From an uncultured Rubrobacteraceae bacterium (lineage in GTDB: Bacteria > Actinomycetota > Rubrobacteria > Rubrobacterales > Rubrobacteraceae): a DNA stretch of 53,380 nucleotides. The notes under the pieces are model-generated. The model saw only the letters and a program-made list of their open reading frames with translations. It had not been told where the DNA came from and made no database searches. A program made the translations under genes and the position numbers. Below are positions 44,198 to 51,816 of this stretch, piece by piece. The first letter of the stretch is position 1, and each line of letters begins with the position of its first letter. Location: positions 1 through 53,380 of the forward strand of contig CADCUT010000022.1 in the NCBI GenBank assembly GCA_902805975.1, in the 5' to 3' direction.

Positions 44198-44226
44198 CCG
44201 CCCCCACACTGCGAGCGTGGGGGCGG
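44198..44226. repeat. Perfect 10-bp inverted repeat overlapping the tandem repeats
   Basis: CCGCCCCCAC (44198-44207) and GTGGGGGCGG (44217-44226) around a 9-nt loop. The right arm is part of the tandem 11-mer array. It could be an opposite-facing single site for the same regulator or a hairpin. Confidence 0.6.
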
Positions 44227-44247
44227 TGTGGGTGCGGTGTGGGTGGT
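44215..44247 (+). promoter_or_regulatory. Three tandem 11-bp repeats upstream of the FAD-oxidase operon
   Basis: GCGTGGGGGCG (44215-44225), GTGTGGGTGCG (44226-44236) and GTGTGGGTGGT (44237-44247) are direct repeats at one-helical-turn spacing. The array ends at the -35 position of a candidate promoter whose -10-like CAAGCT is at 44267-44272, within the shared GCARRCTGG. The same three-repeat array at the same distance occurs at 49155-49187. Probably an activator site. Confidence 0.7.
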
Positions 44248-44312
44248 TCGCATCCGGTGGGAACGGCAAGCTGGTGGCCAGAGCAGATCGTTCAGAGAAA
44301 GGAGGGCATCGG

Positions 44313-44537
44313 ATGTTTACGGGGATGGAGTCGCTGGTGGCCCATCAGGAGCGCGGTGAGTTGGCGCGGGAAATCCACGCGGGTCGCCTCGACCGGGGGC
44401 TGTGGACGGGCCTTTGGTTCCGCCGCGAGGGGCGGTGGTCTCTCTGGCGCCCACGCGAGATCCCGGCTCCGACCAGCATGCCATCCTCGCGGAAGATAGC
44501 TCATTTGCGTGATGTCGGGTTTTTCACCCGGATCTAA
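44313..44537 (+). CDS. Small protein, first gene of the FAD-oxidase operon
   Basis: A 74-aa protein of unknown function. The ATG has an excellent Shine-Dalgarno sequence (AAAGGAGG, 44298-44305, 7-nt spacing) and follows the tandem-repeat promoter. The N-terminal half has a helix (LVAHQERGELAREIHAGRL) like the short leaders of many small actinobacterial proteins; the rest is Arg/Trp-rich and without a membrane segment. It ends 33 nt before the oxidase. Confidence 0.65.
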   Translation: MFTGMESLVAHQERGELAREIHAGRLDRGLWTGLWFRREGRWSLWRPREIPAPTSMPSSRKIAHLRDVGFFTRI

Positions 44538-44570
44538 GCTGCGTCAATCGAGAAGAGATAGGAGCAGATC

Positions 44571-45977
44571 ATGGAGACAGTAGGTATTGGTTCGACGCTC
44601 GAGTCCTTGCGGGCTGGCCTGAAGGGCACGGCGTACGCGGCGGGCGAGGAAGGCTACGACGAGGCGTCCAGGGCGTGGAACCTGAGCGCCCACCAGGAAC
44701 CCGCCGTGGTCGTAATGGCCGAGGGTGCCGTGGACGTGATCGCCGCCGTACGCTTCGCCCGGGATCTCGGGGTGGGCGTGGGCGTGATGGCGACCGGTCA
44801 CGGCCTCGGCGCCCCCTGCGACGGCGGCGTCCTCGTCAACACCTCCCGCATGAGGGGCGTGCGGGTGGACCCGGTAGCCCGGACGGCCAGGGTCGAGGCC
44901 GGCGCGTTGTGGACGGACGTGATCCCCGAGGCCCAGGCGCACGGCCTCGCCGGCCTCGTCGGCTCCTCCTCCCACGTCGGCGTCGTCGGCTATACGATGG
45001 GCGGCGGCTTCGGCTGGCTCGGGCGCCGGTACGGCCTGAACGCGGCGAGCGTCCTTGAGGCCGACGTCGTGACCGCCGACGGCGAGCTCCTGCGCGTGAG
45101 CGCTGGCGAGCACCCCGACCTGTTCTGGGGCCTCGGGGGCGGGGGCGGCAACTTCGGGATCGTCACATCCCTGGAGTTCCGGCTCTACCCGATTACGGCC
45201 GTCTACGGCGGCAACGTCTTCTACCCGATCGAGAAGGCCAGGGAGGTGCTGGAGCTCTACGCCCGGTGGAGCGCGGATCTCCCGCAGGAGATGACGACGG
45301 CCGTCACCTTCCTGAACGTACCCCCGCTGCCGGACATACCCGAGCCCCTGCGCGGCGGTTCGTTCGTGGTCGTGCGGGGCTGCTATTCCGGGGAGAACCC
45401 CGAGGACGGCGAGGAGCTGTTTCGTCCCGCACGGATGGGTATCGGAGACCCTGTTATGGACACGTTCGGGGTGATGCCCGTCGCGGCGATGGACGCGATC
45501 AGCATGGACCCGGTAGACCCGATAGCCTCCGTCCAGCACTCCGAGATGCTGCGGGACCTCTCGTCCGGGGCCATAGACGCCCTCGTCGAGGTGGCCGGTC
45601 CGGACTCCGGTTCGCCGCTCATACTGCTCGAGATCCGTCAGCTGGGAGGCGCGCTCGCCCGCGTCCCCGAACGCCTCTCGCCCATGGGAGGTGGCAAAGC
45701 CGGCTTCATCATGAACGGCGTCGGCGCGGCCTTTACCCCCGAGATGGCCGAGGGCGTGAAGGCACACCTCGCCCGCGTGGGAGAGGCGACACGCGAACAC
45801 CAGACCGGCGAGACCTACGTCAACTTTATGGAGCTCGACGCCGCCGGCGAGGAAAGGGTGCGGGCCGCCTACCCCACAGAAGACTTCGAGCGGCTCGTCG
45901 CCCTCAAGGACCGGCGCGACCCCGACAACTTGTTCCGCTTCAACCGCAACATCGCCCCCACGAGGGACGCCAAGTAA
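44571..45977 (+). CDS. FAD-binding oxidoreductase, berberine-bridge-enzyme type
   Basis: 468 aa VAO/PCMH-fold flavoprotein. An FAD_binding_4 domain (about 40-215: ATGHGLG with H77 for 8-alpha-histidyl FAD, then MGGGFGWLGRRYGLNA) and a C-terminal BBE segment (DPDNLFRFNRNIAP). The Cys that gives a second covalent bond in bicovalent members is Ser here (S133 in GSSSHVG). Such enzymes oxidise alcohols, sugars or polyketides. With a SnoaL-like gene downstream, a small natural-product or detoxification step is plausible; the substrate is unknown. Confidence 0.88.
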   Translation: METVGIGSTLESLRAGLKGTAYAAGEEGYDEASRAWNLSAHQEPAVVVMAEGAVDVIAAVRFARDLGVGVGVMATGHGLGAPCDGGVLVNTSRMRGVRVDPVARTARVEAGALWTDVIPEAQAHGLAGLVGSSSHVGVVGYTMGGGFGWLGRRYGLNAASVLEADVVTADGELLRVSAGEHPDLFWGLGGGGGNFGIVTSLEFRLYPITAVYGGNVFYPIEKAREVLELYARWSADLPQEMTTAVTFLNVPPLPDIPEPLRGGSFVVVRGCYSGENPEDGEELFRPARMGIGDPVMDTFGVMPVAAMDAISMDPVDPIASVQHSEMLRDLSSGAIDALVEVAGPDSGSPLILLEIRQLGGALARVPERLSPMGGGKAGFIMNGVGAAFTPEMAEGVKAHLARVGEATREHQTGETYVNFMELDAAGEERVRAAYPTEDFERLVALKDRRDPDNLFRFNRNIAPTRDAK

Positions 45978-45999
45978 CGGCGCCGGCGAGGGGCGAAGC

Positions 46000-46028
46000 A
46001 CCGGGGGTCGCGGCGCGCGGCCCCCGGT
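46000..46028 (+). other. Strong hairpin between oxidase and 50-aa gene
   Basis: 8-bp perfect stem (46000-46007 with 46021-46028) with further CGCG pairs inside the loop. No T-tract. It may attenuate or protect the mRNA inside the operon. Confidence 0.55.
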
Positions 46029-46057
46029 CAGAAAGCAACCGAAACGGAGGAGCAGAG

Positions 46058-46210
46058 ATGATCGCCGAAAGATTCGCCAACGAGGGGACCCGCGCCCTCG
46101 CGGTCGTCGTCCCCTCGGAAGTCCTATCAAACCCCATGCCCCGGCTCCTGCCAGCCGGTGCCCGCGAGGGTCTCACACCCTCCGCATCCGAACCGGGGGT
46201 CGACGCATGA
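46058..46210 (+). CDS. 50-aa protein of unknown function
   Basis: Short frame with a clear GGAGGAG ribosome-binding site 7 nt upstream, ending in an ATGA overlap with the SnoaL-like gene. Both signals point to real translation or at least coupling. No domain recognised: no signal peptide and no membrane helix, rich in Pro and Ala. Confidence 0.55.
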   Translation: MIAERFANEGTRALAVVVPSEVLSNPMPRLLPAGAREGLTPSASEPGVDA

Positions 46211-46614
46211 TCTCCGGCCGCCCCCGGCACGGTACGTTCCCCGTACCCGGCGAGTTTCTGGAGGATGTAACGAGGGTGCGGGCGGCGTACCGGGCTCTCG
46301 AGGCCGGTGACATACACACGCTGACCCGCCACCTGGACCCGCGGGTCGAGTGGGTCCACCCCGCGGTCACCCGCCTCCCCTTCGACGGCATCGTCCGCGG
46401 CCTGCCCTCGGTCCTGCGGTCCGCCTTCCGCCAGAGCGAGAGCGGGGACAGACCGCGGATCTCGGCCGGTTCCTTTCTGGAGCTGGGCGACGGCGTTCTC
46501 GTCGTTGGACGGTTCGCGGAGGGTCATGGAACCGAAGCGGCCGGGGCTCCATTCCTGCACGAGTGCTCTGTGAGGAACGGTAGGATCTTCCGGATACGGG
46601 AGTACCCGGCGTAG
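46207..46614 (+). CDS. SnoaL-like / NTF2-fold protein
   Basis: 135 aa alpha+beta barrel of the SnoaL/ketosteroid isomerase-like type. Seen: VRAAYRALEAGDIHTLTRHLDPRVEW, GIVRGLPSVLRS and a final sheet with FLHECSVRNGRIFRIREY. Such proteins act as cyclases, isomerases or small-ligand binders. Last gene of the operon, ATGA-coupled to the 50-aa gene. Confidence 0.82.
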   Translation: MISGRPRHGTFPVPGEFLEDVTRVRAAYRALEAGDIHTLTRHLDPRVEWVHPAVTRLPFDGIVRGLPSVLRSAFRQSESGDRPRISAGSFLELGDGVLVVGRFAEGHGTEAAGAPFLHECSVRNGRIFRIREYPA

Positions 46615-46623
46615 CCTTCGACG

Positions 46624-46638
46624 CGGGCGTGACGCCCG
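46624..46638. terminator. Hairpin between convergent genes
   Basis: CGGGCG-TGA-CGCCCG-type stem-loop between the SnoaL-like gene and the STAND regulator, which converge. No T-tract, so terminator function is tentative. Confidence 0.4.
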
Positions 46639-46660
46639 GCCATGACGGTTCGGCGGCTAC

Positions 46661-48991
46661 CTACCCTTCGAGGGCGTATTCGACGGCCTCCCCGGTCGCC
46701 ATATCCCTTCCCTCTTCCCTGTGGTCCTCGAAGGCCGACACTCCAAGTCGGGAGCGCACCTCGGTCAGCGTGTTCCGGTACAGAGACGCGTCCGTCCGGT
46801 AGTAGGTGTGGCCGCGGAGCCCGATCTCCTCGATCAGGCCCTCCGCCGCCCCGAACAGCCGCGCCGAGCGACCCAACTCCCCGCGCTTCCCGGCCACGAC
46901 CGCGAGGCCTTCCAGAATGTGGGCGACGTTGCCCGTGTCTCCCATCTCCTCTGAAGGCGGGATGCCCTCGGCGAACCTGCGGGCGGCCAGGTCGAGGTCT
47001 TCCTCCGAGAGCGCCAGTTGCGCCAGGTTGAAGAGCGCGTTGCATACCGCCAGCCTGTCGCCTATGTGGCGGCCCAGCGCCAACCCCTCCTCGAACCTCC
47101 TTTTCGCCCCATCGTTCGCGCCCTGCAACAGCAGCACCGTCCCGATCCAGGTGTGCGTCTGCGCGGCCATGCCGTCTTCTTCGCCCGATTCCAGAAACAG
47201 CGGCAGCCCCTTCTCCAGGTGCTCCACGGCCGCCCCGTACTCGCCCCGGACCGTTGCCACGAGGCCGAAGCCGGCCCTGGCGTACGCCTCCGCGTGCGCG
47301 TCGCCGCCGAGGTCGCGCGACAAGTCCATCAGCTCCCGCGCGTGCCGCTCGACGGCCTCGCCGTCGGCCTGGCCGTACGCCATCGCCTCCGCGGCCATGA
47401 TCGCGCGCGCCCGGACCGGCGGCGGCAGCTCCTCGCGCCCATCGAGGACCCGCTCCATCCACCGGCGGCCCTCCCGCTGGTAGTTGTGGATCCACCAGAA
47501 CGCCCACAGCGACCAGCCCATGCGCGCGGCCTCCTCGATGCGCCCGGCGGAGAGCGTCCAGGTCAGGGCGGCGCGCAGGTTGCCGTTCTCCCGCTCCAGC
47601 CTCGCCAGCCACTCGACCTGCGGCGCCGCCCTGAGGTGCGGACGCGCCCGCTCGGCCAGGGAGAGAAAGAAGGCGGCGTGCCGCCCGTGGACCTCCCCGG
47701 CCTCCCCGGCCTCCTCCAGCTTCTCCCTGGCGTACTGGCGTATCGGCTCCAGCATCCCGTAGCGAACCTCGCCATCCGGGTCCGGATCCACGCCCACCAG
47801 CGACTGCTCCGCCAGGCCCCCGAGAAGCTCCAGCACATCGCCACCCTCGCCGGCCGAGCCCACCGCCTCCGCGGCCTCCAGTGAGAACCCGCCGGTAAAG
47901 ACCGCGAGCCTCCGGAACAGCGCCTGCTGCGGCCCGGAGAGGAGGCCGTGGCTCCAGTCGAGGGTGGCCCGCATGGTCCTCTGGCGCTCCGGAAGATCCC
48001 TCGCCCAGCCCGCCGAGAGAGCCCGGTCAAGACGCGAGAGGAGGGTTGCGGGGTCGAGGAACCTGACCTTGGCGGCCGCGAGCTCCAGGGCCAGCGGCAA
48101 CCCATCCAGGCGCCAGCAGATAGCGGCCACCGCCCACGCGTTCTCCGCCGTGAGACCGAAGGCCGGGGCGGCCGCCCGGGCACGGTCCACGAACAGGCGC
48201 CCCGAGGGCGAGTCGAGGACATCCTCGACGGCGGGGTTACGGGTTGAGGCGGGCAGGGCCAGGGGCGAGACCGGGTACTCCTGCTCACCCCTCACGCGCA
48301 GGCGGGCGCGGCTGGTCGAGAGCACGGTCAGGTCTCTGCAGGACTCGATCAGGGCCGCCACGGCCGGGGCCGCCTCTAGCAGGTGCTCGAAGTTGTCGAG
48401 CACTAGGAGGAGCCGCTTGCCTTGCAGGTGGGCGCGCAGCGCCTCGTGCGGGTCCTGGCCTTCGGTCTCCGTGAGGCCCAGGGAACGGGCGATGGTCGGG
48501 ACCACGAGCGCGGGGTCCTCCAGGGGGGCCAGGCCGACAAAGGCGACGCCGTCCGCGAAGCTCTCGGCCGCGTCCCGCGCGACCTCGATCGCCAGCCGGG
48601 TCTTTCCGATGCCCCCGGGCCCGGTGAGCGTCAACAGCCGGTCCCCGTCTCGGGAGAGAAGCGCCCCCACCTCCCCCGCCTCGCGCCGGCGCCCGATAAG
48701 CGGCGTCGGCGGCGCGGACGGCAGGGATTGCGCCACGGCCGGCGATGGTGCCGCTTCGCGCCCCGGAACGGACCGTACCAGCGCCTCCTTCGAATCCTCG
48801 GAGAGATGCAAGGCCTCCGCGAGCGAGCGCAGGGTGTGGGGATAGGGGCGCTTCCTCTCGCCGCGCTCGAGGGCGCTTATGCCCTTGGCGGTAAGCCCCG
48901 CCCGCTTTGCCAGCTCCTCTTGTGTCAGACCGGCCTCTTCCCGCAAGCGCTTTAGTCTCTCGCCGAACGTGCCGATCCCCGTCGCGCTCAT
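46661..48991 (-). CDS. STAND regulator: XRE HTH, NTPase and TPR-like repeats
   Basis: 776 aa. N-terminal XRE/Cro HTH (about 8-63: GERLKRLREEAGLTQEELAK), an NB-ARC/AfsR-like NTPase (about 95-400: Walker A GPGGIGKT at 124-131, Walker B LLLVLDNFEH), and a C-terminal helical TPR-like region (about 430-760). This is the layout of signal-sensing STAND transcription factors. ATG at 48991 with GAGGGGC upstream; the longer frame is not supported. It lies between two promoters carrying the same tandem repeats and has repeats in its own upstream region, so it is the best candidate for the factor binding them. Confidence 0.88.
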   Translation of the reverse strand: MSATGIGTFGERLKRLREEAGLTQEELAKRAGLTAKGISALERGERKRPYPHTLRSLAEALHLSEDSKEALVRSVPGREAAPSPAVAQSLPSAPPTPLIGRRREAGEVGALLSRDGDRLLTLTGPGGIGKTRLAIEVARDAAESFADGVAFVGLAPLEDPALVVPTIARSLGLTETEGQDPHEALRAHLQGKRLLLVLDNFEHLLEAAPAVAALIESCRDLTVLSTSRARLRVRGEQEYPVSPLALPASTRNPAVEDVLDSPSGRLFVDRARAAAPAFGLTAENAWAVAAICWRLDGLPLALELAAAKVRFLDPATLLSRLDRALSAGWARDLPERQRTMRATLDWSHGLLSGPQQALFRRLAVFTGGFSLEAAEAVGSAGEGGDVLELLGGLAEQSLVGVDPDPDGEVRYGMLEPIRQYAREKLEEAGEAGEVHGRHAAFFLSLAERARPHLRAAPQVEWLARLERENGNLRAALTWTLSAGRIEEAARMGWSLWAFWWIHNYQREGRRWMERVLDGREELPPPVRARAIMAAEAMAYGQADGEAVERHARELMDLSRDLGGDAHAEAYARAGFGLVATVRGEYGAAVEHLEKGLPLFLESGEEDGMAAQTHTWIGTVLLLQGANDGAKRRFEEGLALGRHIGDRLAVCNALFNLAQLALSEEDLDLAARRFAEGIPPSEEMGDTGNVAHILEGLAVVAGKRGELGRSARLFGAAEGLIEEIGLRGHTYYRTDASLYRNTLTEVRSRLGVSAFEDHREEGRDMATGEAVEYALEG

Positions 48992-49039
48992 GCCCCTCGC
49001 CGCTCCGAACCCTGTCTGTGTATACCCCGTGCAGTCCGA

Positions 49040-49045
49040 ATCATA
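49040..49045 (-). promoter_or_regulatory. TATGAT -10-like box for the STAND regulator
   Basis: Minus-strand GTATGAT about 50 nt before the regulator ATG. A second candidate, TATACA, is at 49019-49024. No clear -35. Confidence 0.35.
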
Positions 49046-49126
49046 CAGAACCCGGGAACGCGGGCGCATCACCGGGATGGGCAGACCCGGGCGCTCCTGT
49101 TGCGCGACGTAACGACGGCCACGCCC

Positions 49127-49148
49127 GGCTCCCACGCCACCCCCACGC
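49127..49148 (-). promoter_or_regulatory. Two 11-bp direct repeats facing the STAND regulator
   Basis: On the minus strand GCGTGGGGGTG (49148-49138) and GCGTGGGAGCC (49137-49127) resemble the repeats of the two (+) promoters and are oriented towards the regulator gene. Suggests autoregulation. Confidence 0.5.
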
Positions 49149-49154
49149 CCCGGA

Positions 49155-49187
49155 CTGTGGGTGCTGCGTGGGGGCGGTGTGGATGGT
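49155..49187 (+). promoter_or_regulatory. Three tandem 11-bp repeats upstream of the secreted-protein gene
   Basis: CTGTGGGTGCT (49155-49165), GCGTGGGGGCG (49166-49176) and GTGTGGATGGT (49177-49187). The -10-like CAGACT is at 49207-49212, 19 nt after the array, exactly as at 44215-44272. Confidence 0.7.
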
Positions 49188-49324
49188 CGGCGGCCAGGCC
49201 GGGCCGCAGACTGGCACCCATGAAAACGGACGGAGGCGAGCGACCCGGAAAGGAGCATCAGAACGGAGAGCCGGTGAAGTACCAGAAGGCGGCAGAACGG
49301 GTTACCCGGAGAACGGAGAGAGCG

Positions 49325-50128
49325 ATGACGAAGAAGATAGCGATAAAGGCAATATCGGTCGGAAGGGCGACGGTCTTTGCCCTGGGGCTTGCGATGATCC
49401 TCGCGGTGGTGCTCGGGGTTGCCTCGTCGGCATTGGCCGCCAACGGCAAGCCCTTCCTGCTCGGCAAGGGCAACATCGCGACGAGGGTGAGCACGCTCGT
49501 AAATAACGGCGTCGGGCCGGCGCTCGGGTTAAAGGTGGCCGCGGATCAGGCCCCGCTAACGGTCAACCCTGAGGCCGGGACGGCCACGAACCTCAGCGCC
49601 GACGAGCTGGACGGCAAGAACTCGGACGCGTTCCTCGGCCGGACGGAGAAGGCCGCGAGCGCGGCGAGCGCCGACAACGCCAACACGCTGGACGGCGTTG
49701 ACTCCGCCGCGTTCGCCAGGACGTCCTCCGAGGCCTGGCGCGGGGTCGGGTCCGCCGGTCAGCCCGCCTTCAACACCCATTCCCAGAACGCGCCGATGTG
49801 GGAGAACTTCGACGACGGGCACAACTCCGTGGGCTTCTACAAGGACTCGACGGGTACCGTGCACCTCAAGGGGTTGGCGAGGTGGATCACCATCCCGGGT
49901 AACACCGGTACCATCCGGCTCGCCTGCAACTCCGGCAACGAAGTGTTCGAGTTGCCGCAGGGCTACCGTCCCGCGGTCAGGGAGGTGGTGCTGACCGTCT
50001 CCAATGACGTCCCGCTCAGGGTCAACATCGACAATGACGGCGGTGTCTACCCTTGCAACACGACCCGCGACTGGGCCAACGGAGCGTGGGTCTCCCTCGA
50101 CAACATCGACTTCCGGGCGGGCAACTAA
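49325..50128 (+). CDS. Secreted protein with LDG repeats and tail-fibre-like end
   Basis: 267 aa. Signal peptide of about 37 residues (MTKKIAIK, a hydrophobic core, then SSALAA before NG). The middle has LDGK/LDGVDS repeats (about 93-140) common in actinobacterial secreted proteins. The C-terminal domain (VHLKGLARW, LPQGYRPAVREV) resembles the head domains of phage tail fibres. Start chosen at ATG 49325 with GGAGAGAG upstream. An in-frame ATG at 49220 coincides with the predicted transcription start and would give a leaderless, 35-residue longer form. Function unknown, probably surface or extracellular binding. Confidence 0.8.
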   Translation: MTKKIAIKAISVGRATVFALGLAMILAVVLGVASSALAANGKPFLLGKGNIATRVSTLVNNGVGPALGLKVAADQAPLTVNPEAGTATNLSADELDGKNSDAFLGRTEKAASAASADNANTLDGVDSAAFARTSSEAWRGVGSAGQPAFNTHSQNAPMWENFDDGHNSVGFYKDSTGTVHLKGLARWITIPGNTGTIRLACNSGNEVFELPQGYRPAVREVVLTVSNDVPLRVNIDNDGGVYPCNTTRDWANGAWVSLDNIDFRAGN

Positions 50129-50786: not shown

Positions 50787-50877
50787 AAGATGAAACGAGC
50801 AGCCTTTGCAGGGAAAACGGTCACAAGAGACCCAAGTAGGGACTGCAGAGAAGCTTTCGGCGGGGTATCGTGGGGTG

Positions 50878-51816
50878 ATGCACACGGTCGCTGTTCTGGC
50901 CCTGGATGGTGTTCTGGCCTTCGATCTATCCACGCCGGTCGAGACCTTTGGTCGCGTCCGGCTGCCCGACGGACGGGCGCCCTACCGGGTGCGCGTCTGC
51001 GCCCCATCAAACGAGGTAGACGCGGGGCCTTTCTCCCTGCGCGTCCCGTGGGGTCTGGACGCGCTGGCCGGGGCCGACACCGTCGTCCTGCCCGGCCTGG
51101 CCGACCCAACGGTGAAGGTACCGGAGCACGTCCTGGACGCGGTACGGGAGGCCGCGGGCGGCGGCGCCCGCGTCGCCTCGATCTGCGTGGGCGCGTTCAC
51201 CCTGGCCGCCACGGGGCTCCTGAACGGGCGGCGCGCGACGACCCACTGGGCTGCGGCGGGAGAGCTATCCCGAAGGTACCCGGACGTCGAGGTCGACGCG
51301 GACGTACTCTTCGTCGATAACGGGCAGGTCCTGACCTCGGCCGGGGCGGCCGCCGGGCTGGACCTTTGCCTGCACATGATCCGGGCGGACCACGGCTCCG
51401 CGGTGGCGGCCGACGCCGCCAGGGTCGCCGTGATGCCCCTGGAGCGCGACGGCGGGCAGGCCCAGTACATCGTGCGCGAACAACCTGGCGCGGACGGGGC
51501 GAGCCTCGAACCGCTGCTGCGGTGGATGGAGGAGAACTCCCACAGGGAGCTTGCCCTCGACGACATCGCCACCAGGGCGACGATGAGCACCCGCACCCTG
51601 AACCGGCGCTTCCGCCAGCAGACCGGCACGACCCCGCTCCAGTGGCTGCACGGGTCCCGGATCCGCCGAGCCCGGTACCTGCTCGAGACCACCGGGCACC
51701 CTGTCGGCCGCATCGCCACCCAGGTCGGCTTCGGCTCCCAGACGAGCTTCCGGGACCGCTTCAAGAGGCTCGTCGGCACCAGCCCGCAAGCCTACCGGCG
51801 TACGTTCCGGAGCTGA
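50878..51816 (+). CDS. GlxA-type AraC-family transcriptional regulator
   Basis: 312 aa: an N-terminal DJ-1/PfpI-like domain (about 1-185, nucleophile-elbow Cys C103 in SICVGAF) and a C-terminal AraC HTH (about 210-310: LALDDIATRATMSTRTLNRRFRQQ, GRIATQVGFGSQTSFRDRFKRL). GlxA members respond to small amino or quaternary compounds; the ligand is unknown. ATG 50878 chosen because the domain begins there. Possible targets are its own promoter and the DUF6010 gene. Confidence 0.9.
   Translation: MHTVAVLALDGVLAFDLSTPVETFGRVRLPDGRAPYRVRVCAPSNEVDAGPFSLRVPWGLDALAGADTVVLPGLADPTVKVPEHVLDAVREAAGGGARVASICVGAFTLAATGLLNGRRATTHWAAAGELSRRYPDVEVDADVLFVDNGQVLTSAGAAAGLDLCLHMIRADHGSAVAADAARVAVMPLERDGGQAQYIVREQPGADGASLEPLLRWMEENSHRELALDDIATRATMSTRTLNRRFRQQTGTTPLQWLHGSRIRRARYLLETTGHPVGRIATQVGFGSQTSFRDRFKRLVGTSPQAYRRTFRS

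Follow-up and report, generated by a model that had tools for sequence, protein, structure and literature searches.

Within a 53,380-nt stretch of DNA from an uncultured Rubrobacteraceae bacterium (the window), three 11-bp units stand head to tail ahead of a promoter-like element at two places, and the gene of an XRE-STAND-TPR protein lies between them. The locus raises the question of which protein reads these arrays, and whether they mark one shared regulon, as a sequence-only reading had proposed.

Architecture of the arrays and the genes they precede

Array 1 (44215..44247, + strand) reads GCGTGGGGGCG GTGTGGGTGCG GTGTGGGTGGT and scores 44.7 bits against a position weight matrix (PWM) of the repeats. 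Array 2 (49155..49187, + strand), which is oriented divergently from the regulator gene, reads CTGTGGGTGCT GCGTGGGGGCG GTGTGGATGGT and reaches 56.2 bits in leave-one-out scoring, with the second-best place in its region at -19.7. Each array is followed after 18 nt by a -10-like element on the + strand, GCAAGCT (GCAAGCTGG, 44266..44272) past array 1 and GCAGACT (GCAGACTGG, 49206..49212) past array 2, while a TGGT element stands 17–18 bp ahead of the weak CAGACT -10. The letters and coordinates of both sets of three 11-mers are as the sequence-only reading gave them, and its distance of 19 nt from array to CANNCT corresponds to the 18 nt followed by GCARRCT seen at both places. Tandem doublets (at most 2 mismatches) occur 5 times in the window compared with 0.31 expected from dinucleotide shuffles, and 0 of 100 windows shuffled in this way reached 5.

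Both arrays are in addition preceded by inverted copies of the 11-mer that had gone unnoticed. Upstream of array 1 these comprise one or more half-sites on the - strand (44198..44212; CCGCCCCCACACTGC, reverse complement GCAGTGTGGGGGCGG), and upstream of array 2 two inverted tandem 11-mers (49129..49150, - strand; GCGTGGGGGTG GCGTGGGAG) face the regulator gene. An inverted copy of the array's own core (at least 5/6 bases, at most 30 nt upstream) accompanies 37 of 48 arrays, against 7–10 of 48 in controls.

The first gene past array 1 is a short ORF (44313..44537, + strand; beginning MFTGMESLVAHQERGE...), also missed earlier, which separates the array from the FAD-oxidase gene and has no Pfam match. 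The predicted targets beyond it are a FAD-binding oxidoreductase with a BBE domain (44571..45977, + strand), whose top NCBIfam model is BagK/FevA1 with a score far under that model's cut-off, and a SnoaL-like protein (46207..46614, + strand). The predicted target of array 2 is a putative secreted protein (49325..50128, + strand) with an N-terminal hydrophobic stretch in its sequence and no Pfam match; a DJ-1/PfpI plus AraC-type regulator (50806-51816) is encoded downstream of it. At six arrays (the window, L043, L045, L067, L071 and L229) a short ORF of ~49-80 aa starting with MFT or LFT, of the pattern MFTxxExSLxxxRRxRLLxEI, is the first reading frame past the array.

The regulator, its paralogs and their arrays

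The gene between the arrays (46661..48991, - strand) encodes a 776-aa XRE-NOD(STAND)-TPR regulator. Its helix-turn-helix (HTH) is of the XRE type, matching HTH_31 at 3e-15 and aligning with the 434 repressor over the full length, residue by residue (E 6e-6). The NOD (Pfam AAA_22 5e-9, NB-ARC 1e-7) has the NB-ARC/AAA core with P-loop and Walker B of a STAND protein, as judged from Pfam, from conserved motifs (P-loop G124xGGxGKT131 invariant and LLVLDN conserved among 21 homologs) and from Foldseek, in which the top match of the predicted structure (pLDDT 82, pTM 0.63) is the STAND-TPR structure 6mfv (E 1e-9), followed by plant NLRs, Apaf-1 and CED-4, with TPR structures also present. Helical repeats at ~431-723, predicted with high confidence, make up a C-terminal TPR sensor; the TPR_12 match (E 1.2e-6, 29.1 bits) falls slightly below the cut-off of 30.1. 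Neither a BTAD plus OmpR-type winged HTH, which would mark a SARP/AfsR protein, nor a C-terminal LuxR-type HTH, as in LAL/MalT proteins, was matched in the regulator (for the former in Pfam), and the AfsR NCBIfam model gives 55.7 of 1430 bits, far short of its cut-off.

The assembly of the window's genome (3.5 Mb, 238 contigs) was scanned by sequence patterns, without a matrix, using the doublet and the last repeat followed by 18 nt and GCAGACT. The doublet pattern finds other strong arrays only on C29 (two) and C208, all of which adjoin homologs of the window XRE-STAND protein. A divergent array is present at 8/8 XRE-HTH STAND paralogs of this genome (C22, C29, C208, C87, C52 (two), C120 and C24), ~100-190 bp from the HTH, and the only two arrays beyond these, satellites at 44215 and C29:14375, each lie at most 5 kb from a paralog. 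The genome therefore holds about ten array sites, every one within 5 kb of one of the eight paralogous regulators. The last-repeat scan returns these ten sites; its other two-mismatch matches are C26:680 and C79:11624 (the latter tRNA-like by eye), the three-mismatch matches C52:17771 and C24:9675 are true arrays, and beyond these the three-mismatch matches do not exceed those of the reversed control. The letters are specific to each paralog, with core variants GTGTGGATGGT, CTGTGCGTGGT, GTGTTGGTGGT, GTGTGCATGGT and GTGTCTGTGGT. Hence the common array architecture behind the proposed regulon stands, whereas a single regulon does not, and the arrays are better described as many self-wired regulator-target cassettes. 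The predicted targets are short and diverse, including cupins, GNAT acetyltransferases, CAAX-protease-like membrane proteins, RTX-repeat and beta-propeller secreted proteins, an ABM monooxygenase, a sulfotransferase and the FAD oxidase; no one common pathway emerges among them, which likewise argues for many private switches and against one regulon.

Related genomes were sampled in sets of 61 and then 40, and the regions around XRE-STAND homologs were read with a PWM built from 20 sites, trained on Rubrobacteraceae only and scored by leave-one-out. Upstream of XRE-STANDs the scores are ~15-60 bits with second-best places negative and no reverse-strand matches, and sites above 8 bits number 48 in 1.49 Mb versus 1 in ~4.5 Mb of shuffled sequence (one strand). 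Conservation of the -10 within the PWM is not independent evidence because the seeds were picked partly by GCAGACT; in an array-only search, which controls for that only in part, GCAGACT (at least 5/7) lies at offset 18 in 26/27 upstream regions, with no other offset above 4 in these 27. The last-repeat-plus-GCAGACT pattern is found in 10/10 family genomes with these regulators (counting G006, in which the strict match is not an array and the true array has two mismatches) versus 1/30 other genomes, and the reversed control gave 0 matches in the relatives. Weaker PWM matches lie beside XRE-STANDs elsewhere, in Nostocoides (28.8 bits), Blastococcus (26.3 and 14.8), Actinotalea (20.1) and Pedococcus (9.1, weak), the site in Pedococcus and Blastococcus lying past the 3' end of the regulator gene.

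Loss of the arrays where the operon is kept had been named as a result that would count against the sequence-only reading. It did not occur: the relative G004 (L229) keeps the array, with an extra fourth 11-mer in register, the short ORF, the FAD oxidase (91% identical), the SnoaL protein (83%) and the end part of a convergent STAND gene (71%). It is highly improbable that the arrays are left over from a mobile or replication repeat (an iteron, attachment site or REP-like element) and lie upstream of genes by chance. Tandem and inverted units in multiple copies per genome beside paralogous genes are what such an origin would produce, but the 18 nt to GCAGACT is constant, nearly all arrays are oriented towards a coding start, their letters track an HTH residue (see below), and a relative at 91% protein identity has kept array and operon together. 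The pairing of array and regulator has exceptions. Orphan arrays without an adjacent STAND occur in G002, G003 and G004 (L226, L228, L231, L232, L233 (two), L235 and L237), and three regulators of the clade, G003.C42b, G002.C43 and the second on G002.C66, are without a clear array; contig breaks account for only some of these.

A SARP/AfsR-type (BTAD, OmpR-like) activator could in principle bind the arrays, with the XRE-STAND adjacency due to chance. SARP sites are typically 11-bp direct repeats, spaced 11 or 22 bp, that follow one DNA turn and overlap the -35 of a weak promoter (PMC10936776), AfsR of Streptomyces shares both the NOD-TPR and the 11-bp spacing with the window system, and the window's genome encodes NOD proteins that resemble the window protein only past its HTH (e.g. 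C43 and C74). Three differences make such an activator very unlikely. Firstly, the window regulator is without a BTAD/OmpR-type DNA-binding domain, and among NOD ORFs, in which XRE HTHs were recognised by HMM, an array lies at most 250 bp from the HTH end in 30/81 with an XRE HTH versus 0/60 without one. Secondly, the repeat spacing agrees with that of SARP sites but the distance to the -10 does not, being 8 bp from the 3' repeat in SARP promoters (PMC10936776) versus 18 nt to GCAGACT here (the offset in 26/27 regions). Finally, the array letters track the XRE recognition residue, something no SARP could supply. NODs with another DNA-binding domain were also considered as owners of the arrays and rejected, arrays being absent near them.

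Covariation of the array letters with the recognition helix

The 434 repressor contacts bases through Gln28, Gln29 and Gln33. Among 34 regulator-array pairs, the HTH column that covaries most strongly with base 6 of the repeat is the recognition-helix residue aligned to Gln29 (z 8.5, versus 4.2 for the second-ranked column), which in the window regulator is K36 (codon 48884-48886). Where this residue is Lys, base 6 of the middle repeat is G in 12/12 cases, versus 2/22 for non-Lys regulators (Fisher p=1.7e-7), and with Asn, His, Arg or Asp base 6 is mostly C or T. The residue has switched at least 9 times on the best tree built without the HTH, and in phylogenetically independent pairs (6 pairs only, from well-supported branches of a tree excluding the HTH) the operator follows the residue in 5.6/6 and opposes it in 0 (p=0.031). 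The Lys-G association is weaker in the third repeat, the one that overlaps the promoter (11/12 vs 8/22, p=0.003; p=0.125 in independent pairs). No one-letter code that accounts for every base was arrived at: with Asn regulators base 6 can be C, T or G, and further positions must therefore play a part. One orphan array in G003 (L231:9039) has a Lys-type (GG) core, yet the regulators found in G003 are all Asn-type.

The covariation speaks strongly, if indirectly, for contact between the array and the HTH of the neighbouring STAND, and the window arrays are very probably landing sites of the XRE-STAND-TPR protein encoded between them. The earlier assignment of the arrays to the STAND protein has good support: they adjoin its paralogs, are absent at NODs without an XRE HTH and covary with the recognition residue. 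Since the core follows the residue equivalent to 434 Gln29, paralogs that differ at this position are probably insulated from one another.

Two further motif classes were seen by eye. A second clade of XRE-STANDs, with TPQAIGLLERG as recognition helix, has tandem TTGTTTGGG units that end in TTGTCGCTGGG, mostly 18 nt ahead of GCANGAT, upstream of G001.C504, G033.C26, G008.C491, G002.C42, G005.C77b, G015.C118, G005.C81, G015.C206 and G062.C117. Far XRE-STAND homologs (e.g. G125 and G089) have CGGTGAC units ~11 bp apart and then a TGGT-like element; the units lie upstream at L217, L218, L219 and L224, with 18 nt and then CAGACT in L217 and L219, so that the layout recurs with another motif.

A proposed switch and its relation to known systems

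As a whole, the observations are likely explained by an adjacent XRE-STAND-TPR protein that binds the array head to tail and recruits RNA polymerase, each paralog having a private cassette of regulator, array and small target operon. Each protomer would use its 434-repressor-like HTH to bind one 11-bp unit, which spans one turn of DNA. Activation sensed by the TPR would lead to NOD-mediated assembly of three or more protomers, arranged head to tail on the array with the last one over the -35 region (TGGT), and from there this row would contact RNA polymerase and bring it to the divergent target operon. The upstream inverted half-site would probably serve autoregulation or nucleation. The arrays, their spacing, their gene neighbours and the covariation are seen in the sequence; direct binding, activation as opposed to repression, oligomerisation on the array and control by a ligand or inducer are inferred.

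Alternatively, the XRE-STAND may bind the arrays chiefly to repress or autoregulate the divergent pair, and not as an oligomeric activator. XRE/434-type domains are mostly dimeric repressors, arrays commonly come with an inverted half-site that faces the regulator gene, and they extend over the -35. We regard this as unlikely, in that three head-to-tail units in one fixed register with the -10, together with a weak-looking -10/-35, match activators such as PhoB, SARPs and MalT in geometry. Moreover, the satellite arrays at 44215 and C29:14375 lie at targets away from the regulator gene, so autoregulation is not the sole role of the arrays.

By its NOD fold and TPR sensor the regulator groups with MalT, AfsR and the STAND-TPR structure 6mfv, and proteins of this kind oligomerise on activation. 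The HTH aligns over its full length with those of 434/lambda-type XRE repressors and C.AhdI-type controllers, which act as dimers on palindromes and are without NOD or TPR. MalT boxes are direct and near the -35, and GutR, the glucitol activator of Bacillus subtilis, has an N-terminal HTH; GutR, likened by description alone, differs in being a single dedicated sugar regulator. MalT, which activates the maltose system of E. coli, has a STAND NOD and TPR-like sensor, as does the window regulator, but a C-terminal LuxR-type HTH in contrast to the N-terminal XRE/434-type HTH here, where the family consists of many paralogs with a single local cassette apiece and 11-bp units. MalT passes from an ADP-bound monomer to an ATP-bound oligomer that binds promoters cooperatively (PMC10427625), and GutR and MalT are cited as prototypical bacterial STAND regulators activated by inducer and ATP (PMC10936776). 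In the open-access literature searched we found no description of XRE-STAND arrays or of their operator code.

It is somewhat more likely than not that XRE-STAND-TPRs have radiated widely in Actinomycetota and neighbouring phyla into many near-orthogonal sensor-promoter cassettes, each comprising an activator, a divergent operator of 11-bp units with an inverted half-site, a fixed 18-nt link to CANNCT and an amino acid-to-base code at the 434 Gln29 position that sets which array is read. An HTH type that reads palindromes is apparently used head to tail by NLR-like switches, the one-turn geometry shared with the unrelated SARPs being a convergent solution. Because the array letters shift in step with the DNA-reading helix, the wiring between protein and promoter may be read from sequence and is testable, and paralogs with matched operators would make the evolution of specificity traceable and predictable. 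Sequence alone could assign targets to otherwise uncharacterised STAND proteins, the parts could be used as orthogonal regulator-promoter pairs, and bacterial relatives of immune NLRs would gain a testable output.
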